Shown: one piece after another, positions 7,883 through 35,293 of the stretch
How the letters are laid out: each line of letters opens with the position of its first letter
Numbering within the stretch: the first letter of the stretch is position 1
Assembly (NCBI RefSeq): GCF_001445655.1
Contig: NZ_LNBE01000002.1
Span: 930,001 to 994,000 of the forward strand
DNA from: Streptomyces roseifaciens
GTDB taxonomy: Bacteria; Actinomycetota; Actinomycetes; Streptomycetales; Streptomycetaceae
Direction of reading: 5' to 3'
Length of the DNA: 64,000 nucleotides
Program-made: the position numbers and the translations under genes
The notes under the pieces: model-generated
Databases searched by the model: none
What the model saw: the letters and a program-made list of their open reading frames with translations, nothing else
Told to the model about the DNA's origin: nothing

Positions 7883-8192
7883 GCGCTGGCACCAATCGAG
7901 TGGCCACCCGTGTGATTCGGGTCAGCCGCCGCCGGGCCGTGCCGGCGGCCAGACGTACCGGGGCGTGGCTCCACACCCTCCGCACCGTCAGTAACCCCCG
8001 CGTCTCTGGCGACACCGTCATCTTTCACGACGTCACCGACATTCCCTGGCCCGTCACCTTGGGGGCGGCCCACCGGACCGACGGCCACGTGTGGGATATC
8101 TTCACCGCACGTGGTCGGCGCCTGCCGCCGGCCACCGAACTGCTGCCCGTCCTTGTCGCCCTCCGTCATGCCTACTGACCCTGGGCTCGGCC
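7883..8192. other. Short stretch without a supported gene
   Basis: A 92-codon forward frame ending at 8178 contains VSGDTVIFHDVTDIPWPVTL. It has acceptable composition but no ribosome site and no recognised family. It may be a remnant. Nothing else is visible between the ArsR gene and the end of the glutaminase gene. Confidence 0.4.
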
Positions 8193-9737
8193 TCAGATCC
8201 GGCCAGGCGTGTCGGCGGCATCGGCGAGCAACCGGGCCAGCTGCCGGTGACCGGAACGGTTGGCGTCATCAAAGGGCGTCCCGCCCCAGCGGTCCACCGG
8301 CTTCGGGTCGACTCCCACGGACAGCAGAAATTCCACGGTTTCCCGGTGCCCCTCGGCCGCGGCCAGATGCAAGGCGGTGCGTCCGTCGTAGTCGGTGGCG
8401 CCGAGGGGGACGTTGCAGGCTGCCATGCGGCGGATCTCGCTGAGGTCGCCCTGACTGGCGGCGAAACACAGCCCGACGATGCCTTCGATGGCACTCTGCT
8501 GACGCTTGAGGCGGGGGTCGCGTTTGCCGGACTCGGCACCGTTGCCGGTGAGCAGGTCGTAGGTGTGGACGTTGTAGCAGTCGACCAGGCGCCGGCAGAC
8601 CTCGATCCCGCGCACGGAATTCCCCTGGGCATCCAGACGGGGTGACCAGATGGCGATGCCCATCAGCTGGGGCACGACCAGCATCAAAGCACCGGACACC
8701 CCGCTCTTGGCCGGAAGGCCGATGGTGAAGGCGAACTCACCCGAGAAGTCGTACATGCCGCACGAGGACATCAGCGACAGGCAGTGGCGCACCGTCTGGG
8801 CGGAGAACACGGGATCCTCCGTCAGCGGACACACCCCCGCGTTGGCCAGGGAGGCCGCCGCGACGGCCAGTTGCTGTGCATTGAGCTCGATCGAACAGCA
8901 CTGGAAGTAGAACTCCAAGGTGGCCAGAAGGTCGGTGCCGGGCGGGAAGGCGCCGCGTTCGCGCATCGAGTAGCCGAGAGCGAAGTTCCGGTCCGCGGTG
9001 TTGCGCTCGGACAGATAGACAGAATTGTTGAAACCGACGCTGCGCCCGCCCGCAAGGCGTTTCCAGGTCTCGGCCACGTAGTCGAAGCGGTCCGCGGCGT
9101 CCAGGCCGCGCTGGATGAGCGCGCAGCTCATGATGGCCCCGGCATTTATCATCGGGTTGTGCGGCAGCCCCGCCTTGTTGAAGGTCAGTTCGTTGAAGCC
9201 GTGCCCGCTCGGTTCCCGTCCCACATGGCGGTGGACGGTGTCGGATCCGTGCTCCTCCAGGGTGAGGCAGTAGCTGACGGTCTTGGACACCGACTGCAGG
9301 CAGAAGTTCACACCCGCGTCCCCGATGGAAAAGCGCTGCCCGTCCACCGTACACACCGACATGGCGAACTGGTCCGCGTCCACCCGCGCGAGCTGGGGAA
9401 TGTACGCGGCGACGGCGCCGGTCCGATCGGCGTGGACCTCCTGGTAGATGCGCTGGAGGTCGTCCACCAGCGCCGGGAAATCAGGAACTGCGAGTTCCCC
9501 GCGGGCGGCCCGTTCGATGATGCCGCGGTTGCCTCGGGTGGCGGCGGCGAACTCCTCCACAGTCAGCAGTAGCGGCTCGGTCCGTAAGCGGGCAGGGCGG
9601 GCGCGCTCCAGATTGTCAATGGTCTCGGCGATCCTCGGGTCGTCGGGCAGAATGCCTGCCCGGCGCAGCACCTCCAGCAGCCGGTCGGGAGAGAGTAGGC
9701 CGGATGAATCTTGCTCAAAACAGCCGAAGACGCCCAC
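8193..9737 (-). CDS. glsA: Glutaminase with C-terminal ankyrin repeats, 514 aa
   Basis: Hydrolyses glutamine to glutamate and ammonia through a beta-lactamase-like serine fold. The GTG start at 9737 follows GGAGG. Residues 1-45 are EF-hand-like (FEQDSSGLLSPDRLLEVLRR), matching the N-terminal helical region of animal-type glutaminases. The catalytic core, about 75-370, has YIPQLA, the SxxK motif QSVSKTVSYCL, NPMINAGAIMSCALIQ and the oxyanion segment GLPAKSGVSG. The C-terminus, about 410-510, has two or three ankyrin repeats (YDGRTALHLAAAEGHRETVE, WGGTPFDDANRSGH). The architecture equals eukaryotic GLS rather than the short bacterial GlsA. It is intact and seemingly monocistronic. Confidence 0.92.
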   Translation of the reverse strand: MGVFGCFEQDSSGLLSPDRLLEVLRRAGILPDDPRIAETIDNLERARPARLRTEPLLLTVEEFAAATRGNRGIIERAARGELAVPDFPALVDDLQRIYQEVHADRTGAVAAYIPQLARVDADQFAMSVCTVDGQRFSIGDAGVNFCLQSVSKTVSYCLTLEEHGSDTVHRHVGREPSGHGFNELTFNKAGLPHNPMINAGAIMSCALIQRGLDAADRFDYVAETWKRLAGGRSVGFNNSVYLSERNTADRNFALGYSMRERGAFPPGTDLLATLEFYFQCCSIELNAQQLAVAAASLANAGVCPLTEDPVFSAQTVRHCLSLMSSCGMYDFSGEFAFTIGLPAKSGVSGALMLVVPQLMGIAIWSPRLDAQGNSVRGIEVCRRLVDCYNVHTYDLLTGNGAESGKRDPRLKRQQSAIEGIVGLCFAASQGDLSEIRRMAACNVPLGATDYDGRTALHLAAAEGHRETVEFLLSVGVDPKPVDRWGGTPFDDANRSGHRQLARLLADAADTPGRI

Positions 9738-10092
9738 ATGAGTTCCTCCACCCTGGCCGCAAAGGGTCCTGGACACAAAGGAGCGGGCCTCGGACCGCTT
9801 CCCAGCCTTCGCAGCAGGCAAAGAGCTCCTCCGATCAGTTGCAGGCAGGGCCTCGTGTCTCTCCAGGAACAGCTGATGGACTGCATGGCCCAGCCGGTGA
9901 GGCCGACGGAGTGCATCGGCCCCAGCAATCCCACCGCAACGACGATTCCCGGCCACCAGCGACGAAAACCAGCCTCACCGGGCCCGGCGCACTCGGGCGA
10001 GTGGTGCGGTTGCGGGCACCAGGGCGTTCCGCTCCCCACGCGCTGCACGCCCCTGAAACGCTCCGTCCACGCCCACGCAAGAAGCGCTCGCT
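9738..10092. other. Intergenic region with possible membrane-protein remnant
   Basis: No intact gene. On the minus strand 9830-9990 encodes a hydrophobic run (WWPGIVVAVGLLGPMHSVGL) that may be the end of a lost membrane protein. There is no start or family signature. Confidence 0.35.
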
Positions 10093-12345: not shown

Positions 12346-12559
12346 GGCGCTCAGGTGCTGACTCCCGTGCTGACTTGGTGCTGACTATGCAGCGTTGAAT
12401 TTCGACATTTGGGTACGGATTGGTCATGTGAGCGGTGTGCGGGGTGGGTCTTCAGCGAGGAGAGCACCGCGTCCTTGGCGGCGCGCGAGGCAGGGCCGTG
12501 CGGGCCCCCGGCGCTGCCGGGGCCAGCCGACGGGCCGGGACCATCCTCGGCCGACGACA

Positions 12560-12840
12560 TGGATCTGGCGTCCGTTGTGCTGTCCCGGCTGGGCCTTGAG
12601 GAACGACGGCAACTGCCGGAGAGAGCCGAGCACGTCCGGGAGGTTCTCTACGGCTACCGGTCAGGCAGCCGTGAGTTGGCTGGCGAGGGCGAGCCGCGTC
12701 CCGGCTACGATCCGGCGCTGCCGAAGATGGTCCGCTATCGGACCAAGGCCGACGAGCTCGGCATCTCGGTACGCACCATCGGGCGCCGGGTGGCGGGGCT
12801 GGAGAGCGGCGGCGAAGCCGCTCTGGCGACCACGGCGTCA
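12560..12840 (+). mobile_element. Mu/IS481-type transposase N-terminal fragment
   Basis: MDLASVVLSRLGLEERRQLP is followed by VREVLYGYRSGSRELA and MVRYRTKADELGISVRTIGR. This corresponds to the N-terminal DNA-binding region of actinobacterial Mu-type integrases. Similarity stops around GGEAALATT (about 12835), before any DDE catalytic domain. Exactly there the minus strand begins to read as the tail of lasB1. I infer that an insertion-deletion event fused the element to the lasso locus and removed what lay beyond. The frame is open upstream to 12409 but without recognisable sequence. Confidence 0.65.
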
Positions 12841-13068
12841 GCGAGGAGCGTCCTGCCGTGTCGCTGCGGGAGCGTTCGACGGTGAGCTGGGGGTAGGCCT
12901 CGCGGAGCCTGCACGCCGTGTCGGCCAGGGCGGCGCCGCCGAGCAGGGTGCGCAGGATGAGGGCCGCGGTTCCGTTGAGCTGCCAGTACCGGCCGGTGAC
13001 CTCGTCTAGCAGCACATGCCGTCCCCGGTGTCCGTCGCGCAGGCGTCATGGCGCAGGGCGAGGCTCAC
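12840..13068 (-). pseudogene. lasB1: Lasso peptide RRE/PqqD-like protein B1, frameshifted
   Basis: GTG 13068 overlaps the lasC stop in a GTGA, the coupling expected for a C-B1 operon. It reads SLALRHDACATDTGDGM and then stops. The homologous continuation, VLLDEVTGRYWQLNG and ALILRTLLGG, is in the next frame; one G restored in ATGTG near 13015 (ATGGTG) would join them. A second shift after LTVERSRSDTA leads to TLLADAVVARAAS. B1 (RRE) proteins bind the lasso leader peptide and present it to the protease and cyclase. The 3' end abuts a transposase fragment. Either the gene is dead or the sequence has errors. Confidence 0.75.
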
Positions 13069-14969
13069 GATGCTCCTTGGGGGGCCGCGGGGCTCGGTGG
13101 GCAGGTGCTCCCGGCACGGGTACGGAGCCAGATCTCGTTGCCGAGGCTGGGGTTGAGGGAGCGCAGTGCGTTCGGTGTGGGGTGGACCCCGAGCAAGCTG
13201 GTGCGGATGGCCGTGGTGTCGATCAGTCCGGCCCGGGCGAGGTGTGAGTCGTCGAACAGCTCTACCAGCGTGGCCCGGTTGTGGCGCAGGCTGTGGTGGA
13301 AGTCGGCGCTGTATTCGCCTTTGGTGCGCCGGCGCAGGACGGAGTCGGGGATGATGCCGTCCATCGCGGCGGCGAGTACTGGTTTGTACCGGCCGGGGGT
13401 GCTGCGTTCGGGCACGCGGATGGCGAGCGCCGCTTCGAGCACGTTGTCGTCGAGGTAGGGCGCGGCGTACGCCAGTCCCTTGCGGGAGAACACGTGGTCC
13501 AGCTGGCGGACGCCGCGCCCGCCGGCCTGTACGCAGGTGAGCGCCGCGTGCTGTCCCCGTCGGGGCGCGAGGGCCTCGGCGGTCCCGGCGGCTTCGCGGA
13601 GCAGGCTCTGCACGGTGCGGACCGCCTCGGGGGTCGCCCATGAGGGCATGGGCAGGTCCATGCCCCACGCCGTCGAGGGGGCGCGGCGGCGGCCTGGTGC
13701 GGTGGGAGGCGGCTCCGGCTCGATGAGGCTGTCCGCCCAGGCCGCCAGCCACTGGGCGAAGGTCCGGCGGTCGGCGAGCTGGCGCAGCAGCGGCCACAAG
13801 GGCCAGCGCTGGGAGTCGCGGTGTGTGCGGATGCGGGCGAACGCCGCCAGCGGATGGCTTCGGACGTAATCGTGCAGGTGCGGGGGAAGCGCGGAGAAGA
13901 GTTCGTCCCCGCCTCCGCCCATCATGTGCAGGCGTGACCCGCGGGCGGTCATCAGACGGGCCATCGTTGCGATTCTGGCGCTGTCGCGTACCCAGGGGCC
14001 CGGTTCGTCGGTAGGGACCGTGCTGCCGGTCAGATCCGTCAAGCCGCTGTACCACAGGGGCCATTCACGGGCGGAGGGTGTCACGTGCTCGATGCCGGGA
14101 AGCATGGCGGTGGCGTGTGCGGCCCAGGCGTTGTCGTCGTTGTCGGGGTCGAGGCTCTGCCAGCGCAGGGTCACCAGCCGGGCCTTCTCCGGCTGCCTCC
14201 GGTCCTGCTCCTGGGCGGCCAGGAAGCACAGACTGGTGGAATCCAGGCCTCCTGAGAGGTCCGAGCTCACCGTGCCGCCGCCGGCCGTGCAAGCGCGCAC
14301 CGCGGCGGTCAGCGCCTCGCGCACCGCGGGCACCCCTTGTGTCAGGGTGAGTTCCGCCTCCGGAGGGCTCCACCACCGTTGTGTACGGGCCCGTCCGTCC
14401 GCCTCGATCAGCAGGCAGTCATGGAGACGCAGGCCCTGTACGCCCCGCCACACGCACCGCTCGTCCAGCGGATACGGAGGATGCGAGGCCAGGAGGTGAA
14501 GAGCCAGGAGCCCCTCGTCCACGCCCGGCCCGGCCCCCGTCGCAGCCGCGGCCGCCACGGCGAGCCTGTCCGCTCTGTCGGCGGCCACCACCACCCCGCC
14601 CACGCGTGCGTGGAAGAGCCGCCGCACCCCGGATGCGCTGCCCCTGGCCCGGACCCGGCCGTCCACCGAGGCCAGAAGATGAAAGCTGCCCGTCAGGCCC
14701 TGGGCGGCCCGCTCCACGTCCGCCAGGTCACGGACCTGGCCGGCTCGCGCGGACAGCGCATCAGGGGTGACCGGGCAGCGCCCGATCACCGCCAGCCGCC
14801 GCGCCCCTGCCGCGCCCACCGTCACATGCCCGTCCGGCCAGCAGCCCAGCAACCACGGCCGGCCGGAGTGGTGGGGGACGGCCTCGGTCGCCCAGGGGCG
14901 CAGCAGTCGCGCAGCGGCCGCGCCCGATTCACCGTCCGGGAGGACCGCGAACCACACGTCACCGGGCAT
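13065..14969 (-). CDS. lasC: Lasso peptide cyclase (asparagine-synthetase-like), 634 aa
   Basis: A homologue of asparagine synthetase B that adenylates an Asp or Glu side chain and forms the macrolactam with the core N-terminus. The N-terminal glutaminase-like half lacks the catalytic Cys2 (starts MPGDVWF), as expected for lasso cyclases, which need no ammonia. The ATP-pyrophosphatase domain has SGGLDST at residues 239-245 and GGGGDELFS further on. The length is normal for actinobacterial LasC. It starts 18 bp after the precursor gene and its stop overlaps the lasB1 start, giving operon lasA-lasC-lasB1. Confidence 0.93.
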   Translation of the reverse strand: MPGDVWFAVLPDGESGAAAARLLRPWATEAVPHHSGRPWLLGCWPDGHVTVGAAGARRLAVIGRCPVTPDALSARAGQVRDLADVERAAQGLTGSFHLLASVDGRVRARGSASGVRRLFHARVGGVVVAADRADRLAVAAAAATGAGPGVDEGLLALHLLASHPPYPLDERCVWRGVQGLRLHDCLLIEADGRARTQRWWSPPEAELTLTQGVPAVREALTAAVRACTAGGGTVSSDLSGGLDSTSLCFLAAQEQDRRQPEKARLVTLRWQSLDPDNDDNAWAAHATAMLPGIEHVTPSAREWPLWYSGLTDLTGSTVPTDEPGPWVRDSARIATMARLMTARGSRLHMMGGGGDELFSALPPHLHDYVRSHPLAAFARIRTHRDSQRWPLWPLLRQLADRRTFAQWLAAWADSLIEPEPPPTAPGRRRAPSTAWGMDLPMPSWATPEAVRTVQSLLREAAGTAEALAPRRGQHAALTCVQAGGRGVRQLDHVFSRKGLAYAAPYLDDNVLEAALAIRVPERSTPGRYKPVLAAAMDGIIPDSVLRRRTKGEYSADFHHSLRHNRATLVELFDDSHLARAGLIDTTAIRTSLLGVHPTPNALRSLNPSLGNEIWLRTRAGSTCPPSPAAPQGAS

Positions 14970-14987
14970 AGGTTGACGGCCCCGACC

Positions 14988-15125
14988 TCAGCTGGGGCCC
15001 AAGTACCACTCATAGGGAGGGAATCCACCCTCGTACTGCGCCCCGATGGCCTCGCCGCGCGTCAGATCGGCGAAGTCACCGACCTCCACCATCACCGGCG
15101 GTTCGTACAACTCCTGCTGATGCAT
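14988..15125 (-). CDS. lasA: Lasso peptide precursor, 45 aa
   Basis: A short gene directly upstream of the cyclase. The leader MHQQELYEPPVMVEVG then DFADLTR has the actinobacterial lasso signature YxxP..G.F...T, with Thr at the -2 position. Cleavage after TR gives a 22-residue core: ring segment GEAIGAQYE (Gly1 joined to Glu9, a nine-residue macrolactam), then loop and tail GGFPPYEWYLGPS. There is no Cys, so it would be class II. The tail is rich in Tyr, Trp and Pro, which could serve as steric plugs. ATG 15125 has GGGGG 8-9 bp upstream. I do not recognise this core among named lasso peptides. Confidence 0.92.
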   Translation of the reverse strand: MHQQELYEPPVMVEVGDFADLTRGEAIGAQYEGGFPPYEWYLGPS

Positions 15126-21155: not shown

Positions 21156-22364
21156 ATGGATCACACTGCAGAGTGTCTTCCGGAATTCAGTTCCAGGCGT
21201 GATCCCGAGGCGCCGTTCGATCCGCCGCCGGAGCGCATGAGGTGGCTCGAACAGGAGGGCTTGCCCCGGGTGAGGTTGTGGAACGGGGGAACGGCCTGGG
21301 TGATCTCGGGTTACGAGGAACAACGGTTGCTTCTCGCCGACCCCAGGATCAGCGCGGACGACCGTCACCCGAATTATCCGTTCTTCAGCCCGGGCTCCCA
21401 GGCGGCGGGTAGGACCCGGACGTTCCTGAGGATGGACGGCGCGGAACACAGTGAGCACCGACGCCGGTTCCTCCCCGGCTTCTCCGCGCGTCGTATGCGG
21501 GCGTTGGTCCCCCGAATCGAGGAGATCACTTCCTCTGCGTTGGATGCGATGGAGGAGATGGGACCGCCTTGCGATCTGATGACTGCCTTTGCGTTGCCCG
21601 TTCCCTCACGCGTCATCTGTGAGCTCCTGGGCGTGGCGTACGCGGACCACGAGTTCTTCGAGCGGGATTGCGTCGCACTGACCGACATCAACAGCAGCGC
21701 CGAAGTCGCCTCCGCGGCATGGCGTCGGATTCTGGACTACCTCGCGGCCCTGGCCGACGCCAAGGCCGAGGATCCCGCCGACGACCTGATGAGCGTGCTG
21801 GCTCACGAGATGGCCGCCGGGCGGATCAGCCGTGAGCAGTGCGCGAGCGACGGCCTACTGATCCTCCTGGGCGGACACGAGACGACCGCCAACATGATCG
21901 CGCTCGGTTCCTGTCTGCTGCTCCAGCACCCCGGCCAACTCGTGCGCGTCCGTGACGGCGATCCGCAGGACGTCGCCCGCGCCGTGGACGAGCTCATGCG
22001 CTTCCTGTCCGTCGCGCAGAGCGGCCGACGCCGTGTGGCCACGGCGGACATCGAGGTGTCGGGCGGCGTCATCCGGGCCGGCGACGGCGTGATCTTCGCG
22101 GGAGACGTGGCCAATCGGGACCCGCGGGTCTTCGAGGAACCCGGCCGACTGGACGTCGGCCGACAGGCTCGTTACCACCTGGGCTTCGGACACGGGCCAC
22201 ACCGCTGTCCGGGTGAGAGCCTGGGCCGGCTGGAGCTCCAGGTCACCATTCCCGCGCTGCTGCGTCGTTTCCCCGGACTGTGCCTCGACCGGCCGCTCGG
22301 AGAGCTGAGATTCCGTTCGGACTCGATGAACTACGGGGTCCATGAGATGCCGGTTTCCTGGTGA
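21156..22364 (+). CDS. Cytochrome P450, 402 aa
   Basis: A soluble bacterial class I P450 that uses ferredoxin electrons to hydroxylate or epoxidise a substrate. The I-helix motif LLGGHETTAN is at residues 237-246 (acid-alcohol pair replaced by HET as usual in actinobacteria). ExxR is ELMR at 279-282. The heme loop FGHGPHRCPGE has Cys351 as the axial ligand. ATG 21156 follows AAGGGGCGGG. The gene converges on the acyl ligase gene (88 bp apart) and points away from the MFS gene. Its likely role is oxidative tailoring of the polyketide. No ferredoxin gene is nearby. Confidence 0.93.
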   Translation: MDHTAECLPEFSSRRDPEAPFDPPPERMRWLEQEGLPRVRLWNGGTAWVISGYEEQRLLLADPRISADDRHPNYPFFSPGSQAAGRTRTFLRMDGAEHSEHRRRFLPGFSARRMRALVPRIEEITSSALDAMEEMGPPCDLMTAFALPVPSRVICELLGVAYADHEFFERDCVALTDINSSAEVASAAWRRILDYLAALADAKAEDPADDLMSVLAHEMAAGRISREQCASDGLLILLGGHETTANMIALGSCLLLQHPGQLVRVRDGDPQDVARAVDELMRFLSVAQSGRRRVATADIEVSGGVIRAGDGVIFAGDVANRDPRVFEEPGRLDVGRQARYHLGFGHGPHRCPGESLGRLELQVTIPALLRRFPGLCLDRPLGELRFRSDSMNYGVHEMPVSW

Positions 22365-22451
22365 GCAACGTCCAGGGACCGCGCGGGGTCCCTGGACACG
22401 CGCAGGCCGGCCGGGCATCGACCGGCACTCGCCGACCTCTCCCTTGCTCCG

Positions 22452-24053
22452 TTACCCCGTCGCACTGTGGTCCGGCTGTCGGGAGGTCGCCAGGCCGAGG
22501 CTGTTCCGCAGTGCCCGCTTGTCCGGCTTGCCCCGGGGAGTGAGGGGAAGGCTCGTCAGCGTGTGCAGCGCGGCAGGGGCGCAATGCGCCCCCTTCTGCT
22601 CCGTGAGGAAGGCACCGACCTCCTCCAGCTCCACTCGACTGCCCGGGGTGGGAACCACGGCGACATGGATCTCCTCCCTCAGATCGGCACCGCTCGCTCC
22701 GAAGACCGCGCATTCACTGATCGACGGATGGGCTGCGAGCAGCTCTTCCAGGTCTGCGGGGTGCACGCGCACCAGCCGGTCCCCTCCGGACACGAACAGC
22801 GTGTCCGTGAGCCGGTCGAGGACGGACAGCTTGCCCTGCTCGTCGAAGCGGCCGAGGTCCCCTGTCCGCAACCAGCCGTCCGGGCGCAGCACCTCACGGG
22901 TGAGACCGTCGCGTTTCCAGTAGCCGGACATGACGACTGCAGAGCGCACCCAGATCTCACCTTCCTGTCCGGGTTCCAGAGGCTCGCCGTTCCGGTCGCG
23001 TACGGAGACCTCGACACCGGGCATCGGCCGCCCCACGGAGACGGCTCCGTCGCGGTCGGCCAGATCGCTCTCGTGCTCGTGCGGCAGCAGGGAGCTGATG
23101 GGGCCGGCCTCGGTCTGCCCGTAGCACCCCTGGAAGATGGGGCCGAAGACCTTGATGGCCCGCCGCAGCAGGGAGGCCGAGGCGGCGCAGCCCCCGTACA
23201 TGATCCGGGCGAGGCTCGACACGTCGGTGGTGGGCAGGGAGGGCTCGTCGAGAAGCCGCCTGAGCAGCGGGGGCGGCAGCCACATCACGGTCACGCGCTC
23301 CTGCTCGATCGCGGCGAGGAGTTCGCGGGGGTCGAAGGACGGCTGGAGGACGACCGTGCCTCCCTGCAGGAGGGTGAGGTCGGTAAGGGCGCCGGTGGAG
23401 GAGACGAATCCCGTGCACACGAGGAGGCGGGGCGGGTCCCCGAGCCCCGGTACGGGAACCGCGAGCATGGCGCTGTAGGCAGCGTGGGCGATGCGTACGC
23501 CCCGGGAGCCGCCCGTCGTCCCGCCGGTGGACACGACACTCCAGTCCTCCTCGGGGCGGACCGCCGCCGCGAACGGACCGGGTGGGTGCTCGGTAGCACG
23601 CGCGAGGAGGTCCTCGCCGAGCTCGTCGGTGCCGAGGCCGCACACCGTGGTCCGTTCGATCAGGGGCAGCAGTGCCCTCGCGGTGTCGGTCCGTGTGAGG
23701 TCGACGAGCAGCAGCGCGCAGCCGGCCCCGTCGAGGAACGCGGCGAGGGCCGCGGGGTCGGTCGTCTCGTACAGGGACACCAGCCGGGCTCCGGCGAGCG
23801 TGATGGCGTAGCGGGCCTGAACGGCTTCCGGGGTGTTGCCGGTCAGGAGGGCCACGGACACGCCACGGCCGACTCCCCGCTGGTGAAGGGCTCGCGCCAG
23901 TCGGTACGTGTCGTCGCGAAGCGTACGGGCGGTGATCCGGCGTCCGTCCGAGGCGATCAGCACCTCTCGATCGGGCGACTCCGAGAGGACGCGCAGGATC
24001 GCATCCGGGTAGCCGGCAGACGCGGAATCGGCTGTTGGCGGATGGGTGTTCAC
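22452..24053 (-). CDS. AMP-dependent acyl-CoA/ACP ligase, 533 aa
   Basis: An ANL-superfamily ligase that adenylates a carboxylic acid and transfers it to CoA or an ACP thiol. The P-loop-like motif STGGTTGGSRG is near residues 184-194. YGQTEAG is at about 321. GWLRTGDLGRFDEQGKLSVL (A7-A8) is at about 396-415, and the A10 lysine lies in PLTPRGKPDKRAL. The GTG start at 24053 follows GGAGA, 10 bp after the PKS stop, so the two genes form an operon. It has no carrier or condensation domain. It probably activates a starter acid for the PKS or activates the released product. Confidence 0.9.
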   Translation of the reverse strand: MNTHPPTADSASAGYPDAILRVLSESPDREVLIASDGRRITARTLRDDTYRLARALHQRGVGRGVSVALLTGNTPEAVQARYAITLAGARLVSLYETTDPAALAAFLDGAGCALLLVDLTRTDTARALLPLIERTTVCGLGTDELGEDLLARATEHPPGPFAAAVRPEEDWSVVSTGGTTGGSRGVRIAHAAYSAMLAVPVPGLGDPPRLLVCTGFVSSTGALTDLTLLQGGTVVLQPSFDPRELLAAIEQERVTVMWLPPPLLRRLLDEPSLPTTDVSSLARIMYGGCAASASLLRRAIKVFGPIFQGCYGQTEAGPISSLLPHEHESDLADRDGAVSVGRPMPGVEVSVRDRNGEPLEPGQEGEIWVRSAVVMSGYWKRDGLTREVLRPDGWLRTGDLGRFDEQGKLSVLDRLTDTLFVSGGDRLVRVHPADLEELLAAHPSISECAVFGASGADLREEIHVAVVPTPGSRVELEEVGAFLTEQKGAHCAPAALHTLTSLPLTPRGKPDKRALRNSLGLATSRQPDHSATG

Positions 24054-24063
24054 CGGGTGTCTC

Positions 24064-27000
24064 CTATCGAGCCGGGCGGTGAGGGTCCGCGTGTTCTGGT
24101 GCGGCGGACTGTTCCAGGGCGGTCAGCCAGTCCTCGACCGACTGCGCCGTGTGTCCCGCGTGTTCTGTGAGCAGGGAGAAGTGATCGCCCGGGACGGCGC
24201 AGGCCGTGTGCGGGCACGGCCAGTTCTCGGGCAGGTTGCTGTCCTCTGGGTGGACGAGCAGGGTCGGAACGTCGAGCGGAGCCGGAGTCCAGTCGGCGAA
24301 CAGGTCGGCGTAATTGCCCGCGGCAGTCAGCATGGCCGAGGTGACGAGCGACCGGGCCAGGCTGACCCGTGCGGCGAGTTCACGGGCCAGGCGCTCGGGA
24401 GCCGAGCGAAGCAACGGAGGATCCAGCAGCACCAGCCCCGCAGGAGGCGTGCCACGCTCCTGGAGGGTCTGGGCGAGCGCGTGGGCCAGTAGACCGCCGG
24501 AGGAGTGCCCCAGGAGGACGTACGGCCACGGTGGCGCCGACCGGGCGAGGAACTCGGCCCAGGCTTCCGTCAAGGTACGGATGGAGGCGGGCAGGAGCTC
24601 GTCGTCCAGCGCCCCGGGGAGGGCGACGGACCGTACCGTGCGCCGTCCGTCGAAGAGCCCCGCCAGGGTGGTGTACGGCGTCGAGGACGGAGCGGTGGTG
24701 AAGGGCGGCAGGCACACGAGTCCCGGACCGGCCGGTCCCTCGCTCAGCCGTACCCACTCTCCGGTGTGCAGTTGCTCGTGGCGACCGGTGAAGGAGCGGC
24801 GTGTCGCGCCTTCCCTCAGCCGTCGTCGCCCCTCCTCGACGTCGCCTCGGGCCCAGGCATTCAGAACTTCCGTGACGAAACCGTCTTCGTCGTTCTCGGC
24901 GGACGTCCGGGCCTTCGGAACCAGCAGGCCGCCGAGGTGCTCGCCCAGGCGCGCGGGCGTGGGGTGGTCGAACACGGCAGTGACGGCGAGGCGGACACCG
25001 GTCGTACGGGCCAGCCGGGTCCGCAGCTCAACCGAGCCGAGGGAGTCGATGCCCAGGTCGCGGAAGCACTGATCGCTGCGGATGCTCTCCTTGCCGGCGT
25101 GCCCCAGAACCGCGGCCGCCTGGGCGCGGACCAGGTCGGTGAGGGCAGAGAGCCGTTCCTCGGACGGCAGGGACAGGAGACGCTCGTGCTCGCTGTCCGC
25201 CGCCGTGGTGGCGGTGGACCGGGTCGGGGCCGGGCGATGGCGGAACATGGAGGCCAGCAGCCCGTCGGGCTCCTGTGCGGGCGCGTGGCGTGCCAGTGCC
25301 GTGACGGCGACATGCGGGTGGTCCAGGCCCAGTGCGGCGTCGAATCCCGCCAGTGCCTGCCGGGTCGTCAGCGGCTTGAGCCCGTGCCGCGACAGGCGTG
25401 CCTGGTCGGCGGCCCCCAGACCCGCCGTCAGCCCGCTGGTCTCCTGCCACAGGCCCCAGGACAGGGAGACTGCGGGGAGCCCCTGCTGCCGGCGGTGGTG
25501 GGCCAGTGCATCCAGGAAGGCGTTGGCTGCGGCGTAGTTCGCCTGGCCCGGGGTGCCGACCAGGCCCGCCATGCTGGAGTACAGCACGAAGACGCTGAGG
25601 TCGACGTTGCGGGTGAGCTCGTGCAGGTGCCACGCGGCGTCGGCCTTGGCGCGCAGGACCGTCCGCAGACGCTCGGGGGTGAGGTCGCAGACCAGGCCGT
25701 CGTCGAGCGCGCCGGCGGCGTGCACGACGGCGGTCAGGGGGTGTTCGGGCGAGACCGAGGCGAGAGCCTGCGCGAGCGCGGCTTTGTCCGCTACGTCGCA
25801 GGCGGTGAAGGTCACCGTGACGCCGTGCACGGACAGTTCCTCGGCCAGCTCCCGCGCGCCCGTGGCTCGTTCGCCCTGGCGGCTCAGCAACAGAAGGTGC
25901 CGTACGCCGTGGACGTCCGCGAGATGACGGGCGAGCAGCGATCCCAGGGTGCCGGTGCCGCCCGTGATCAGCACGGTGCCCTCGGGGGAAAGGACGGGGG
26001 GCTGGGTCAGGACGATCTTTCCGGTGCTGAGGCCCCGGCTGAGGAAGCGCAGCGCGTCGCGTGCCTGGCGGACCGACCACGTACGGAAGGGCAACGGAGT
26101 CAGCGCCCCGTCCTGGAACTTGCCCATGAGCCACCGCAGCGCGACACCCGGCGCGGAGTGATCGGCGAGGTCGAAGGCGCGATAGGTGACGCCGGGGTGG
26201 GCCGCGGCGACCTCGTCCGGGTCGCGGGTGTCGGTCTTCCCCATCTCAAGGTACCGGCCACCCCTCCTGAGCAGGCGCAGGGAGGCATCCACGAACTCCC
26301 CGGAGAGGCTGCCCAGGACCACATCGCACCCGGTGCCGCCGGTGGCCCGGAACAGGTCGTCCTCGAAGGACAGGGTGCGCGAGTCGGCGATGCGGCCCCG
26401 GGCAACGCCCATGGCCGCGACGAGCTCTTGTTTGCCTTGGCTGGCCGTGGCGTAGACCTCCGCACCCAGGACGTGTGCCAGCTGTACGGCCGCCATACCC
26501 ACCCCTCCGGCGGCCGCGTGGATGAGGACCTTCTCGCCCGGTCGTACGCCGGCCAGGTCGATCAGGGCATATTGTGCCGTCAGGAAGGCCCCGGTCACCG
26601 TGGCCGCCTGTGCGAGGGTCCACTTCTCCGGGATCGGCACCACCAGTTGGTGGTCCACGTCCACAAGTGGCGCGTATCCTCGGGCCTGTGGGACCAGCGA
26701 GGCGGCCACGCGGTCGCCGGGGCGCAGCGTGCTGACGCCGACGCCGGTCTCCACGACGGTGCCGCTTACCTCGATCCCGATGCCTTTCCCCTGCACCATG
26801 CCCAGACACATCACGGCGTCGCGGAAGTTCATCCCTGTGGAGTGCACCCTGATCCGCACTTTGCCGTCCTCCACCCGGTCGGGGAAGCCGGCGACCGGAA
26901 CGGCTCGGATGTCCTCCAGCGTATGCCCGGCCGCCGGGACCAGACTCCAGGGCCGGTCGTCCTCGACAGGAAGGGCGAGCCCTTCGTCGTGGGCGGACCG

Positions 27001-30000
27001 GAGCCGCTGGACGAGGATCCCGCCGTTGCGCACGGCGACCTCGGGGCGCGCGGATCCCACGGCGGTGGCCAGCGCCGCGGGGGACGGGTCACCCGCGTCG
27101 GTGTCGATCAGCAGGACCCGGCCGGGGTACTCGCTGTGCACCGAGCGCAGCAGCCCCGCGCACGCCGCCCCCACCAGGTCCCGCACTTCCTCCCCGAAGG
27201 AGGTGGGATGGACGCGGCGGGTCAGCACCGCGAGCCGGGCGCCGCTCAGTTCGTCGCGGGTGAGGAACGTGCGCACCTCGTGCAGCAAGCGGGTCAGGCG
27301 CCGCTCCAGAGCAGACGATACGTTGCGACCGCTCGTCTCACCCGTGGTGTCCCGGCAGTCGAGCAGCACGGTGCCCGGCACGGGGTCGCCGGTCGCCACC
27401 GAGTCCGCCACGGCGGCCATGTCCTCGAAGGAACGGCTCACCGGCAGACCGGTGCCGGGGCCCGCACCGACCCAGTCCGCGCCGGGCTCCACTCCCTCCC
27501 GTGCCGGGAGCACGTCCCAGAACGGAGTGAACAGCGTGGCGTCCGCCACGGCGAGCGCCGAACGGAGCTTCAGCGCGGTGGTGGGCCGCAGCCGCAGGCC
27601 TTCGATCCGGACGACTGCGCGCCCCACCGCATCCGTGGCCTCCAGACCGATGCACTCGGTCTCCGAGGCCGTGAGGGAGGCACGCAGTTCGGTCGCTCCC
27701 TCGGCGAAGACCTCAACGGAACCGATGGCGTACGGCAGCAGCGTCCGCTCGGGTCCGCCGTCCACGAGCAGGCCGTGCAACAGCGCGTCCAGCAGGGCCG
27801 GGTGCACGGCAAACCCGTTGTGCTGTGCACCGTCGTCCAATCGCGCCTCGGTGTACCAGGTCCCGCCCTGCCGCCAGGCGGCGGTGAGATTGCGGAAGCA
27901 CGGGCCGTACGCGTACCCCTTGTCCTCAAGGGCCCGGTAGCAGTCGGGGGCCGCGCCCTCCTCCGCGCCGTGGGGCGGCCACGGCCGGACGGGCACGGGA
28001 GGAGACGCCTGGGCGGCGTCGGCGTCGGCGGTCGATGCCTCGGCGTGCCGAGTCCACCGCCCCGTACCGGAGTGGCCGCGCGAGTACAGAGTGAGACGGT
28101 GCCGCCCGTCGCTCTCGGCCGCGCAGTGGAGCTGGATGTCGACGCCGCAGTCCGGGACGATCAGCGGGGCGTGGAAGAGGACGTCCTCCAGCCGAGCCTG
28201 CCGGCCGACGCGGCGTGCTCCGTACAGCAACAGTTCCACCATGCCCGTTGCGGGCACCAGGACCGTGCCGTGCACGGCGTGATCGGCCAGCCACGGCTGA
28301 GCGTCCAGGGAAAGCCGCCCCGTGCACATCACAGTGCCGTCGGGCAGGTCGGTCACTGCCGGGAGCAACGGATGCCCGCCGTCCTCCAGGCCGGCCGAGG
28401 CGAGTTCGGGAGTACGTGGCGAGGGCGCGGGCCAGTAGTTCCGGTGCCGGAAGCTGTAGGTCGGCAGATCGACGGGTTCGGCGTCCGGGTACAGCGTGGA
28501 CCAGTCGACGTCGGCTCCCTCCGCGTGGGCCGCGCCCAGGGCGGATGCGAAGCCGTCCAGACCACCCCTGTCACGGCGCAGCGAGCCGCTCACGCCTCCG
28601 TCGATCCCTGCGTCGGAGAGGATGTCCCGCAGAGGCCCCGTCAGCACCGGGTGCGGAGAGACCTCGACGAACCGTGTGAAGCCCGCCTCCAGACTCCTGC
28701 GCACCGCCCTTTCGAACAGCACGGGCCGACGCAGGTTCCGGTACCAGTAGTCGGCGTTCAGCTCGCCTTCGGCCACCGGTTCTCCCGTGGTCGACGAGAA
28801 CATCGGGATGCCGCCGGCCGCCGGGCACGTGCCCGCGAGGTCCCTGAGCAGGTCGTCGCGTACGGCTTCCATATGGGGGCTGTGCGACGCGTAGTCCACT
28901 GGCAGCCGTTGCGCCCACACTTCCTGGGAAGCACAGACCCCGAGCAGGTGGTCAACGGCGTCTGCGTCACCCGCTACGACGGTCGCGGCCGGGCCATTGG
29001 CCACCGCCACCTCCAGCCGTCCCGCCCACGGCGCCAGAATCTTCTCGGCGCGTGCGGCGGGAACGGCAAGCGACACCATGGCTCCCCGCGCCGTGACCGC
29101 CCGCAGGAGCCGGCTGCGCCGGGCCACCACGCGAGCGGCCTCTTCCAGGGACAGGAAGCCCGACAGGCACGCGGCCGCGATCTCGCCCTGGCTGTGTCCG
29201 ATCACCGCCGCCGGCTGGACCCCATGCGCTCGCCACAGCTCCGCGAGGGCCACGTACATGGCGAAGAGCGCAGGCTGCACCACCTCGGCCCGCTCCAGCG
29301 ACGGTGCGCCGGGGGCCGCGCGCACCACCTGCTCGACGTCGTGGTCCGTCCACGGGCCCAGCGCTCGCGCGCACCGGGCGAAGGCCTCCGCGAACACGGG
29401 GGACTCGTCCAGCAGCCGCGCTCCCATGCCGTCCCACTGGGCGCCCTGCCCCGGGAAGACGAACACAGGGCCGTGCCCGTGCCCACCCGTGGCTCGTGAC
29501 CGCGCCACACCGTCCGTCTGCCGACCCTCGGCCAGGGCATCGAGGCGGGCCAGCAAGGACGCGGTGTCCTCGCTGGACACCACAGCGCGTTCGGGCAGCG
29601 GTGTGCGCGTCGTCGCCAGGGACAGGCCCACGGACGTCACGTCCAGGCCCGGGTGCTCGCGCACGTGGCGCGCCAGCGCCCGGGCCTGCGCGGGAAGTGC
29701 CTCGGCCGTCGCGGCGTACACGGGCCACACCACCGTCCCCGGGTTCCGCCGCGCGGGACGCCGTGCGCGGACGGGCGGTTCGGGGGCCTCCTCGACCACC
29801 ACGTGAGCGTTGGTGCCGCTGATCCCGTACGCCAGCACACCGGCCCGGCGCGGTTCGTCGCCGCGTGGCCATGGGCGGGCTGTGTGCAGCAGACGCATGG
29901 TCCCGGCCGACCAGTCCACCGCGGGGGTCGGGTTGACGGCGTGCAGAGTGGCGGGCATTTCCTCGTGGGTCAGGGCCAGAACCGCCTTGACGAGTCCGGC

Positions 30001-31083
30001 CATTCCGGCCGCTGCCTGCGTGTGGCCGATGTTGGACTTGAGCGAGCCGACCCAGACGGGCGAGTCCGGCGAGCGGCCGACGGCGTATGTGTCCAGCAGC
30101 GTGGCCGCTTCGATCGGGTCGCCCACCGGGGTCCCGGTTCCATGCGCCTCGACCATGCCGATCTGCCCGGGGCGCAGCGTTGCGTCCCGCAGCGCCTCGG
30201 CGATCACCGCGCGCTGGGCGGAGCCATTGGGAACGGTCAGCCCGTCGCCGGTCCCGTCCTCGTTCAGAGCCGTGCCGCGGATGACGGCCAGCACCCGGCG
30301 GCCCTCGGCACGGGCGCGGCCGAGCGGCATCAGCATCACCGCGGCGACACCTTCCGCCGGTGCGAAACCGTCCGCCTCGGCCGCGAAGGACTTGCAGCGC
30401 CCATCCGCGGTGACAGCGCCCAGGCGGGAGAAGTACACCAGGACATCCGGCTCTGCCATGACGCACACGCCGGCCACGATCGCGCTCTCGCACTCCCCGG
30501 TACGCAGGGCTCGTGTGGCCAGGTGAAGGGCGGCAAGGGACGAGGAACACGCCGTGTCCACCGAGAGCGCGGGCCCGTGGAGGCCCAGGGCGTACGAGAT
30601 CCGCCCGGCCGCCGCGCTCACCGACAGACCGGTCGGCAGATACGCCTCGAGATCCGCCTCGGGTCGACCCAGGCGGCACAGATAGCGGCTGTCGCTGATC
30701 CCCACGTACACCCCGGTCCGGGAACCCCGCAGCGCCCCCGTCGCGGTACGGGAGTTCTCCACTGCCCCCCACACGCACTCCAGCAGCAACCGCTGCTGCG
30801 GATCCATGGCCGTGGCCTCGCGAGGACCCACACCGAAGAAGGCGGCGTCGAAGTCACCGACGCGATCCAGGAACCCGCCGTACCGGACGTATGTCACTCC
30901 GGCGGCGCTCGTGTCCGGTTGGGTGAGGCGTCCCAGGTCCCAGCCGCGGTTGTTCGGCAGCCCCGTACGGAAACTCCGTCCTTCGATGAGCAGTTGCCAC
31001 AACTCGGCGGGAGAATCGCAGTCACCCGGGAACCGGCAGTGCATTCCGACGATCGCCACCGGTTCGTGAGCTGGCAAGGTCAC
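24064..31083 (-). CDS. Single-module highly reducing type I PKS with TE, 2339 aa
   Basis: Domains in order: KS 7-430 (Cys179 in DTACSSS, His314, His354); AT 538-830 (GHSQGE with Ser631, YASH 731-734, which predicts methylmalonyl-CoA); DH 900-1180 ([10 protein letters not shown] with His935, Asp1099 in DALLH); ER 1395-1695 ([15 protein letters not shown]); KR 1700-1930 ([11 protein letters not shown] as in B-type, Tyr1850); ACP 1975-2055 (Ser2014 in LGIDSLGS); TE 2115-2330 (GHSSGG Ser2194, GDHFSLL). All active-site residues are present. GTG 31083 was chosen because GGAGG lies 5 bp upstream and the KS begins at once. An ATG 30 bp upstream has no ribosome site. One complete module plus its own TE suggests iterative use, giving a saturated methyl-branched chain. 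Confidence 0.95.
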
Positions 31084-31324
31084 AAAAACCTCCGATAATC
31101 CGACGGATGGCATGCCGATTGAGATGGGTTGGTTTACCGGAATAGCGTGAAGCTGCTTGGTCGTCGCCGCTAGTATGACTGTGATCGCTGCGTGGTCGCC
31201 TGGAAAGAGCTCAGACGAGGCGGCAGTTGACACCCGGACTCGAACGCGATTTCCCGTAGGTGTCCCTCTGTTCGTGAAATCCGTGACCAGGAAGCGTCTG
31301 GATGCCAACCTTTCGAGCGGCCGG

Positions 31325-33149: not shown

Positions 33150-33781
33150 GGCAGAGGCACCATTGACGGGTCTGACGGACCAGGTACGGGGTGAACTGGA
33201 CGGCTGATGTCACGTCGTTCCCCTCCTCGTGACTGGGATGTCGAGCATTTCTCAGGGGGTGAGACATGAGCGGTGGCCCCCGGGTTGCACCTTCACGGGG
33301 GCGGAGGAGGCAACGGTCGGCGCGTTTCAATAGGTGTGCGCCCCACCCGCTGGACTGCTGTTGGCACAGTAGCCAAGCACACCTCTGCGCACTGAAGCCC
33401 TGCATGAGACGCCGACGTGTGGCTGTACGGAATCATGGTGCTTCAGAGTGCAGGCCAGATGCTCGTCCACTGAATTGCCGCATGAGAGCCGACACCGGCG
33501 CCACCGCCACGGCGACGTCGCCGGTGAACCCAGCCGGAGACGACGGCCAGGCCGTGGTGCTCCGCGAGGCCCACGAGTACCACCTGCCGGACATCATTCT
33601 CGCCGCCCGCGCTACGCCCACGCCGTTCGCGTGGCCCCGGGCCTTCGTTCATGGCCACAGGCGGGGCACGGCCACACTCTCGACGCCAAGACCAAGGCGT
33701 GCGCGGCCAGGCGAGGACCGCCGTCATGTTCACCTGAACGGCTCCGCTCAAAGGGCCGAGGCCTGTGCATCTATAGACTCC
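33150..33781. other. Upstream region of the ATP-grasp gene, possibly broken coding sequence
   Basis: The frame of the ATP-grasp gene is open through this stretch (AVVLREAHEYHLPDIILAAR from about 33550). Another frame reads LDAKTKACAARRG and GRGLCIYRLRD just before the ATP-grasp start. These blocks may be the real N-terminal part of the same protein, split by two frameshifts near 33670 and 33780. The alternative is untranslated leader. Confidence 0.4.
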
Positions 33782-35161
33782 GTGACCGACAAAGTGATCA
33801 AGGAAGCCCAGCGCCTGCTGCGTGCCGTGCCCTGTCTTGGGTACGGCCCCCGTGCGCTCAGCCTTCTGCCGCTGCTGCGGCTGGGCTGCCTCTCGGCGCT
33901 CATCACCGACGAGGCGGCGGACGCCGGCTGGTCCGAACACTTCAACGTGGAGATGTTCTCGCTGGAGAAACACACACGGACCCGGGAGCCTTCGAGGTCC
34001 CGCACCCGTGTGGAGCGTGCCTCCGACCTGATGCCGCTGCTTTCGGACTTCGGCGTCAGACATCGGCATGGCAGGCGGCTGAGGGTGGTGTCGTTCGAGG
34101 AGTGCCCGCCCCCGTGGCCCCAGGTACTGGAGCGCATCGGCATGCGCCTGCACCTACCCGGGCTCGCCGACTCGGCGGTACTGACGGACAAGATTGCCAT
34201 GCGTCGGTGGTTCCGCCACCTCGGTGTTCCCGTGCCCACCAGCACTGTGGTCAGCGGCGAACTCGACTACCCCCGGCTCCGGGCCCGTATCGGCCCGGTG
34301 TTCGTCGTGCAGCGCCCCCGCGGCAAGGCCGGCTACGGGACCTATCTGGTCACCGACGAGATCTCGGCCCGCGCCGTGCCCCCGAGCCCACGCCTACTGG
34401 TCAGCGAGTACGTGGGCGGCATCGGAGTGAACGTCCACGGCTTCGTCCCCAACGACGGCGCCCCTCAGACCCTGCGGCCCTCCGTACAGATCACCTGCGT
34501 CGACGGCGCGGGGTCGGTCTTCGGGCAGTACAGCGGCAACGACTTCCACGCCGTGCGGCTGCTGCCGGCAGCGGTACTCACCGAGTGCCGCAAAGCCATG
34601 GACAGAATCGGACACGGGCTGCACGCCCTGGGCTACCGGGGGACCTTCGGGGCCGACTTCATGGTCCGCGACGACGCCGTGACCGCACTGGAGATCAACT
34701 GCCGTCTGCAGGGCTCCACCTGGCTTCTGGGCGAACTCGAACTGGCGGACGGTACCGTACCCACGATGCTGCGGCACTTTCTTGCTCAGCACGGCCAGGA
34801 CGTGCACGCAACGCCGGACTGCCGCCCCGCGGAAGCCGCCCACTTGGTCATCCGGCATACCGGACCCGCGATCGAAGTGAGCACCGTCCCCGCCGGCGGC
34901 ATCTACCGGTTGGACGGCAACGAGAACCTCACACGCCGGCACGACGGCCCCGGCCTCCTGGAATGCGGCCCCGACGACTGCCTCGTGGCATGCATGCCCC
35001 GGCCTGGCACCGTACTTCAGCCCGGCAGCGTCCTCGCCTGGCTCGCAGCGTCCCGGTCACTCACCACCGCCGACGGCAAGACCCTCACCCCGTACGGTCT
35101 CCAGCTGGTCGACGCTGTACGGCGCCTTCCCCACCCCCTTGGGCCCGGCACGAGCCCGTAG
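33782..35161 (+). CDS. ATP-grasp carboxylate-amine ligase, about 459 aa
   Basis: An ATP-dependent ligase joining a carboxylate to an amine through an acyl phosphate. From GTG 33782: a pre-ATP-grasp domain (CLGYGPRALSLLPLLRLGCL), then the ATP-binding strands FVVQRPRGKAGYGTYLVT (Lys) and LLVSEYVGGIGVNVHGFV. The Mg-binding pair is in FGADFMVRDDAVTALEINCR (Glu, Asn, Arg). The C-terminal part has GGIYRLDGNENL. It is similar in layout to peptide-type ligases found in secondary metabolism. The start is uncertain; an ATG at 33482 is in frame but the intervening text looks poorly coding. Its proximity to the PKS suggests amide formation on the product. Confidence 0.8.
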   Translation: MTDKVIKEAQRLLRAVPCLGYGPRALSLLPLLRLGCLSALITDEAADAGWSEHFNVEMFSLEKHTRTREPSRSRTRVERASDLMPLLSDFGVRHRHGRRLRVVSFEECPPPWPQVLERIGMRLHLPGLADSAVLTDKIAMRRWFRHLGVPVPTSTVVSGELDYPRLRARIGPVFVVQRPRGKAGYGTYLVTDEISARAVPPSPRLLVSEYVGGIGVNVHGFVPNDGAPQTLRPSVQITCVDGAGSVFGQYSGNDFHAVRLLPAAVLTECRKAMDRIGHGLHALGYRGTFGADFMVRDDAVTALEINCRLQGSTWLLGELELADGTVPTMLRHFLAQHGQDVHATPDCRPAEAAHLVIRHTGPAIEVSTVPAGGIYRLDGNENLTRRHDGPGLLECGPDDCLVACMPRPGTVLQPGSVLAWLAASRSLTTADGKTLTPYGLQLVDAVRRLPHPLGPGTSP

Positions 35162-35293
35162 TGGGCAGCCGTACACCCGGCGATGGCCTGCGCCGCACCG
35201 AAGGCCCCAGGCCCCGGTGCGGCCCCTTCATCGCTGTGTCCCCCGTGCGGAGAGCAGGTGATGTCCAGGAAAGGTGCAGTAGGTGCGCGGCTG

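Follow-up and report, generated by a model that had tools for sequence, protein, structure and literature searches.

Is the lasso peptide locus in a 64,000-nucleotide stretch of the Streptomyces roseifaciens genome (contig NZ_LNBE01000002.1, positions 930,001 to 994,000; the window) a complete new cluster, and can it still yield a peptide? An earlier reading of the letters alone (the sequence-only reading) had proposed an unrecognised class II lasso peptide encoded at 12840-15125 of the window. We find that the locus is a recently truncated cluster of a known lasso kind, not a complete new one. It is very probably the surviving half of a class II-type cluster from a widespread Streptomyces family, with the precursor gene (A) and macrolactam cyclase gene (C) retained and the genes for the RRE protein (B1) and the leader peptidase (B2) lost. 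In window coordinates, its parts are the following.

14991-15125, minus strand: lasso precursor (A), 45 amino acids (aa), MHQQELYEPPVMVEVGDFADLTR/GEAIGAQYEGGFPPYEWYLGPS, identified from its sequence, NF033521 and protein homologues
15057-15125, minus strand: leader of the precursor, 23 aa, with YEPP, EVGDF and LTR stretches and Thr at -2 (16 distinct precursors compared)
14991-15056, minus strand: core of the precursor, 22 aa, with a predicted nine-residue Gly1-Glu9 ring and a 13-residue loop/tail (the same 16 precursors)
13065-14969, minus strand, including the TGA at 13065-13067: macrolactam cyclase (C), 634 aa, intact, identified from PF00733, NF033561, its motifs and 92% identity to the cyclase of the related genome G060
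12855-13068, minus strand: remnant of the RRE gene (B1), with a GTG overlapping the cyclase stop and a 20-codon frame, then broken, its 3' end gone (RRE model matches, frames and DNA comparison)
12527-12854, plus strand: N-terminal part of a transposase-like gene, a fragment 90.6% identical to L145 over 12527-12855; one long open reading frame (ORF) in relatives

The precursor ORF starts with an ATG at 15125, preceded by an AGGGGG stretch, and its final codon at 14991 is followed by a TGA (14988-14990). Its leader matches the NCBIfam model lasso_leader_L3 (NF033521) at 35.8 bits (cut-off, 19; E = 4.8e-9) and carries both the YxxP motif and the Thr at -2 of a lasso locus. The core, with Gly at 1, Glu at 9, and no Cys, has the predicted makeup of a class II lasso peptide. 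Gly1 and Glu9 would supply the residue 1 amine and the acidic residue, expected at positions 7 to 9, that such a ring joins, and both are invariant in 16 of 16 distinct precursors. Across the same set, the leader varies only at positions -22 to -18, -13 to -11, -5, and -4. Judged by this comparison, the precursor is more than a chance ORF, because 16 distinct precursors have leader and core in common. The predicted monoisotopic mass of the 22-residue lasso is 2369.064. With class II lasso peptides (microcin J25, lariatin, and capistruin, PMC4289311; RES-701, PMC7280977), the precursor shares a core free of Cys, Gly1, an acidic residue at 9, and Thr at -2.

The precursor TGA is separated by 18 bp from the ATG of the cyclase, whose codons run from 14969 to 13068. 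The cyclase matches the asparagine synthetase family PF00733 (Asn_synthase) at 139 bits. An alignment with seven relatives shows that it keeps both GGDELF and TKGEYS, motifs that are presumably catalytic, as in asparagine-synthetase-like enzymes. The sequence-only reading was right about the 45-aa precursor and its lasso leader signature, Thr at -2, the gap, the intact asparagine-synthetase-like cyclase, and the Gly1-Glu9 spacing of a class II-type core. The best NCBIfam model for the cyclase is NF033561 (albusnodin/ikarugamycin-type macrolactam cyclase), but its 240.8 bits fall under the cut-off of 300, and the precursor scores 18.8 bits against the albusnodin precursor model NF033525 (cut-off, 30). 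With both proteins below these cut-offs, the locus falls outside the albusnodin subfamily. A PDB search with the cyclase gave no match.

The claim that the peptide was unrecognised did not survive. A search of about 5.8 billion proteins returned seven precursor homologues (76 to 93% identity), and four of them, from S. diastatochromogenes, S. lasiicapitis, S. spectabilis, and Streptomyces sp. NPDC048384, already carry the NCBI name "lasso RiPP family leader peptide-containing protein." A GTDB genome scan with the cyclase confirmed 184 relatives, and we took the best 80 of the 184 as loci. This core occurs in 10 of those 80, all 10 with B1 and B2 downstream of C. Family members are found in S. 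diastatochromogenes, S. lasiicapitis, S. spectabilis (known from the protein only), S. phaeochromogenes, S. aureoverticillatus, S. aureocirculatus, S. griseocarneus, and other strains, and the gene order in G060, G033, G063, and G128 is A-C-B1-B2. The core of the 16 precursors can be written GEA[LITP]G[AS]xYEGGFPPYEWY[LAP]GP[NSA], with 17 of 22 positions invariant and positions 4, 6, 7, 19, and 22 varying; the window has Ile4 and Gln7. With the GEA../GGFPPYEWYLGPx precursors, it shares the leader, the core length, 17 of 22 core positions, and the A-C order. However, those loci have B1 and B2 adjoining C (10/10), and the window does not.

The cyclase is split over two frames in S. griseocarneus (L074), and the cyclase ORF of L055 is interrupted. 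An ABC-transporter-like gene (our own reading) on the opposite strand is common to three of nine neighbourhoods compared, and L058, L061, and L062 have further flanking genes in common, as in syntenic chromosomes. The precursor had no match among plasmids; B2 matched 18 plasmid records, none over more than 80% of the query. Three fragments of the family core did not occur in the literature searched, which also yielded no chemistry for the family and no named peptide with this core. The core had no PDB match up to E = 10, and to our knowledge its sequence is unlike that of any named lasso peptide.

What sets the window apart begins at the cyclase stop codon. The sequence-only reading had described a GTGA that couples the cyclase to an RRE gene. 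The GTGA does join the cyclase stop to the GTG of B1, but the frame from that GTG ends after 20 codons and there is no workable RRE. The PqqD-like remainder lies in a different frame and matches NF033530 at 52.8 and 51.6 bits (cut-off, 70) over positions 13-64 or 15-64 of 78. Its 3' end is missing. DNA similarity to B1 stops at 12855 in comparisons with L074, L058, and L057, and at 12827 with L034. When 392 genomes were searched, the B1 matches in four of them (G338, G063, G128, and G033) stopped at exactly the same base, 12855, and a match in G149 to the other side started at the base where B1 homology stops. On that other side is the fragment that we call transposase-like from the appearance of the long ORF in its relatives; it had no Pfam match at E = 1e-4 and no second match in the window genome. 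No B2 lies near the locus, and PF13471 matches only C2:689952 and C4:1666797 genome-wide (C2 is the window's contig, with the window at C2:930001-994000). The interval 12840-15125 covers the B1 remnant and has no B2 inside it. With B1 wrecked and B2 absent, a complete new cluster is ruled out. The sequence-only reading overlooked both defects, although it rightly wanted a complete B1/B2 pair for expression.

It is firmly established that the locus is a truncated cluster and that its family is widespread and uncharacterised. From the junction, we infer that a deletion caused the loss: beside the transposase-like fragment, it would have taken the B1 end and the whole of B2, and the B1 frame was lost too. 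By DNA comparison, the loss looks recent: against G060, the remnant has one gap and 16 differing bases among 214 aligned, 9 of the 16 at third positions, compared with 92.4% identity along the full alignment. Since it is so recent, intact A and C genes alone prove nothing about function.

In intact relatives, the RRE protein B1 is expected to bind to the YxxP leader. B2 would cleave after Arg(-1), just beyond the conserved Thr(-2), and C would use ATP to activate Glu9 and link it to Gly1, giving a 22-residue lasso. These enzyme steps are inferred from knowledge of lasso families, and threading is predicted on the same footing. As far as its gene content tells, the window locus on its own lacks the capacity for the usual pathway, because the B1 end and B2 were removed and the B1 frame was lost. 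Two points weigh against the truncated-cluster account. A sequencing error could account for the broken B1 frame but for neither the lost 3' end nor the lost B2, and ring size, cleavage site, and threading are predictions from family knowledge.

Whether the window still yields a peptide may depend on the rest of its genome (G000), which holds other lasso loci.

G000:C3:1378855-1380916 (precursor and cyclase at C3:1378855-1380780): L008, a second A and C pair without B genes; 646-aa cyclase, core GWFEGNVLEEGGEGLRWWR
G000:C4:1887139-1889461: L009, a cyclase and an intact B1 (B1 at C4:1889228-1889461)
C2:689925-690356: an orphan B2, intact, 144 aa, matching the NCBIfam model at 123 bits over 2-130 of 132
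G000:C4:1666788-1669308: L011, a separate lasso-like locus with a 582-aa cyclase and PqqD-like and B2-like genes of another subfamily

The C3 precursor has the leader ..VYEPPALVEVGSFSALTL before its core, and neither B1 nor B2 was found at its locus. Its kin are in G186 (GWPEGNRLEEGGEGLRWWF, likewise with no B genes adjoining) and S. olivoreticuli (GWIEGNVLEEGGEGQLWHWQ, a complete cluster). The long C3 branch, at 105:113, has a ratio no worse than the branch leading to the complete S. olivoreticuli cluster (88:87; P = 0.69). In the C4 cyclase (L009), GGDELF is without its Asp and TKGEYS without its Lys, and no precursor was found beside the gene. The B1 of this locus is intact (87 aa; 103 bits over 1-78 of 78 of the NCBIfam model), with a ratio of nonsynonymous to synonymous substitution rates (dN/dS) of 0.47 to 0.66 against other B1s. 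Neither a cyclase nor a B1 was found in the 16 kb read around the orphan B2, whose dN/dS against other B2s is 0.23 to 0.50. The B2-like gene of L011 reaches 26 bits on the B2 model, under the cut-off of 33, and no precursor was seen at that locus, with no search aimed at one. Of this kin, then, G000 keeps two A and C pairs, one intact B1, and one intact B2, with no complete set together. Separately, the L009 cyclase contains an insertion with many SHPSHGM-like repeats.

In the B2 tree, the orphan B2 groups with that of S. caatingaensis L070 (support, 0.89), outside the core family B2 clade (0.955). This rules out that it is the window's own B2, relocated. Synteny of the orphan B2 between G000 and G186 was also rejected: L010 and L134 have no DNA match, their only protein match is B2 itself, and the two are far apart in the tree. 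The placement of the C4 B1 is weakly supported (0.14). Because of these placements, both B proteins would be serving a partner from another cluster if they acted on the window precursor.

Incomplete loci also occur elsewhere in the genus. In a sample of 199 genomes, 80 of 95 cyclases had both B genes within 3 kb and 15 did not (95 from 96 rows after two C4 cyclase pieces were merged; B1 rows under about 52 bits excluded; the 15 include at least one, in G198, that lies at the end of a contig). These genus searches scored part of the candidates in each genome (6, 20, or up to 26), so weak or extra copies may be missed. Among the best 80 loci, nine were incomplete on contigs continuing for 8 kb: L067, L070, and L104 lack B1, and L068, L069, L077, L091, L111, and L133 lack both B genes. 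No precursor was seen at L077, L111, or L133, and four further loci of the 80 are cut by contig ends. We rechecked B1/B2 absence at L067-L070, L091, and L104 genome-wide with NF033537 and NF033530, in 16 genomes and not 17, since G018 and G206 are one genome; one of the six B2 seeds in our home-made model (L038) was out of frame. Other partial sets include A, C, and B2 without B1 in S. caatingaensis and S. eurocidicus, a precursor-like ORF with B1 and B2 and no cyclase in 17 kb in S. eurocidicus L139 (about 8060-8938), and an orphan B1 in G060.

The GGYAPWY-type loci of S. olivoreticuli, Streptomyces sp. CB02923, and S. monomycini (L067, L068, and L069) have cyclases related to the window's (59 to 60% by tblastn). 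They resemble the window in the FEGGY core motif, and they too lack B1 or both B genes. The A- and C-only loci of CB02923 and S. monomycini have cyclases 89% identical and syntenic flanking genes, and both enter the same next gene downstream of the cyclase stop. For these reasons, their loss of B1 and B2 most likely predates their split. S. olivoreticuli belongs to this clade too (support, 1.0), but B1 is the only gene that it lacks. Whereas the loss in CB02923 and S. monomycini is shared and older than their split, the window's is recent and marked by the transposase-like fragment. Between CB02923 and S. monomycini, cyclase dN/dS is 0.27 (90.7 synonymous and 69.3 nonsynonymous differences), and for the part of the precursor that starts at YxxP, dN/dS is 0.26 (8 and 8), with the leader motif kept. 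The cyclase of this A- and C-only locus is under purifying selection. Complete clusters lie elsewhere in both genomes, two in CB02923 and one in S. monomycini.

Three readings of what the window now does compete with each other and not with the truncated-cluster anatomy. The first is simple decay, in which the locus no longer works and A and C owe their intactness solely to how recent the loss is. We consider it about as likely as not. Besides the recent loss, G000 has a second worn lasso locus, the C4 cyclase without two conserved residues and a precursor, and incomplete loci are found in the genus (15/95). Decay is also consistent with the lack of enrichment of complete clusters in genomes with incomplete loci (5 of 15 incomplete loci have a complete one elsewhere versus 39 of 80 complete loci; Fisher P = 0.40), a count in which split B genes, as in G000 and G186, go uncredited. 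However, A- and C-only loci in other genomes are conserved and constrained. Furthermore, relaxed selection sought on the window cyclase branch gave no significant signal in what is a weak test (22 synonymous and 22 nonsynonymous changes, where the G060 branch has 39 and 27; P = 0.43).

The second reading, which we hold tentatively and consider somewhat less likely than decay, is maturation in trans, with the window A and C working with the C4 B1 and the orphan B2, which would also serve the C3 locus. The parts for it are present, namely, intact A and C without local B genes and candidate B1 and B2 genes elsewhere in the genome; that these would work together is a prediction, and the general control was negative. 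Both B proteins match their NCBIfam models over nearly full length, the C3 locus has a precursor and a constrained cyclase without B genes, and the constrained locus shared by CB02923 and S. monomycini coexists with complete clusters. For citrulassin, a lasso-pathway enzyme that is unlinked has been described (PMC12971885). Nevertheless, the comparison of 5/15 with 39/80 does not suggest any dependence of incomplete loci on complete ones, and G089, which has an A- and C-only locus, gave no match for B1 and just a fragment of B2. By its place in the tree, the orphan B2 is not the window's former partner, the C4 B1 is weakly placed, and its dN/dS leaves selection on it not clear; the window loss is too recent for an informative selection signal. 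The RREs of neighbouring pathways can discriminate between leaders (PMC13381572), a point tempered by the motif that the G000 leaders at issue share. The literature searched, with limited subscription coverage, contained no description of lasso B genes acting from another locus.

A third reading, B-independent maturation, in which the leader is cut off by another protease and ring closure needs only the cyclase, is unlikely. Pseudomycoidin reportedly matures in this way, going by the title of a paper, and G089, with A and C and no B1 match, would fit. However, YxxP and Thr(-2) are kept at all six A- and C-only loci with a precursor, and LT at five; these six were gathered in two separate searches and do not amount to a census. 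YxxP would be needless without an RRE to read it, which speaks against B independence. Lastly, an assembly or sequencing error that hides B genes actually present in the organism is very improbable: GC-rich DNA is prone to errors that break a frame by a single base, but the 3' loss runs into a different gene fragment inside a 1.14-Mb contig, and the genome search found no B2 of the core family clade.

Elsewhere in the window, 21156-31308 encodes a single-module reducing polyketide synthase of 2,414 aa (KS-AT-DH-ER-KR-ACP-TE by Pfam order), with an AMP-ligase (22452-24053) and a cytochrome P450 (21156-22364) adjoining. At 8193-9956 lies a glutaminase whose N-terminal stretch is EF-hand-like and whose C-terminal part carries ankyrin repeats. 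At 33266-36259, a 631-aa protein with an ATP-grasp_3 match (33 bits) is followed by a 358-aa ORF that had no Pfam match at E = 1e-4.

To return to the truncated cluster, the peptide could probably be made only if spare B copies elsewhere in the genome helped. The core is kept in ten Streptomyces loci besides the window, G060, and further database proteins, and this conservation suggests a selected activity. Some Streptomyces may possibly run a distributed lasso system, with separate A and C pairs, B1 and B2, and one B1 and one B2 for several precursors. If so, the window would be a fresh entrant, supplied alongside the C3 locus by the C4 B1 and the orphan B2, and A- and C-only loci would be functional, overlooked by miners that demand a complete cluster. 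Mining rules that want A, B, and C together would then undercount lasso peptides, and the rules by which RREs, peptidases, and leaders pair would be testable in natural swaps.

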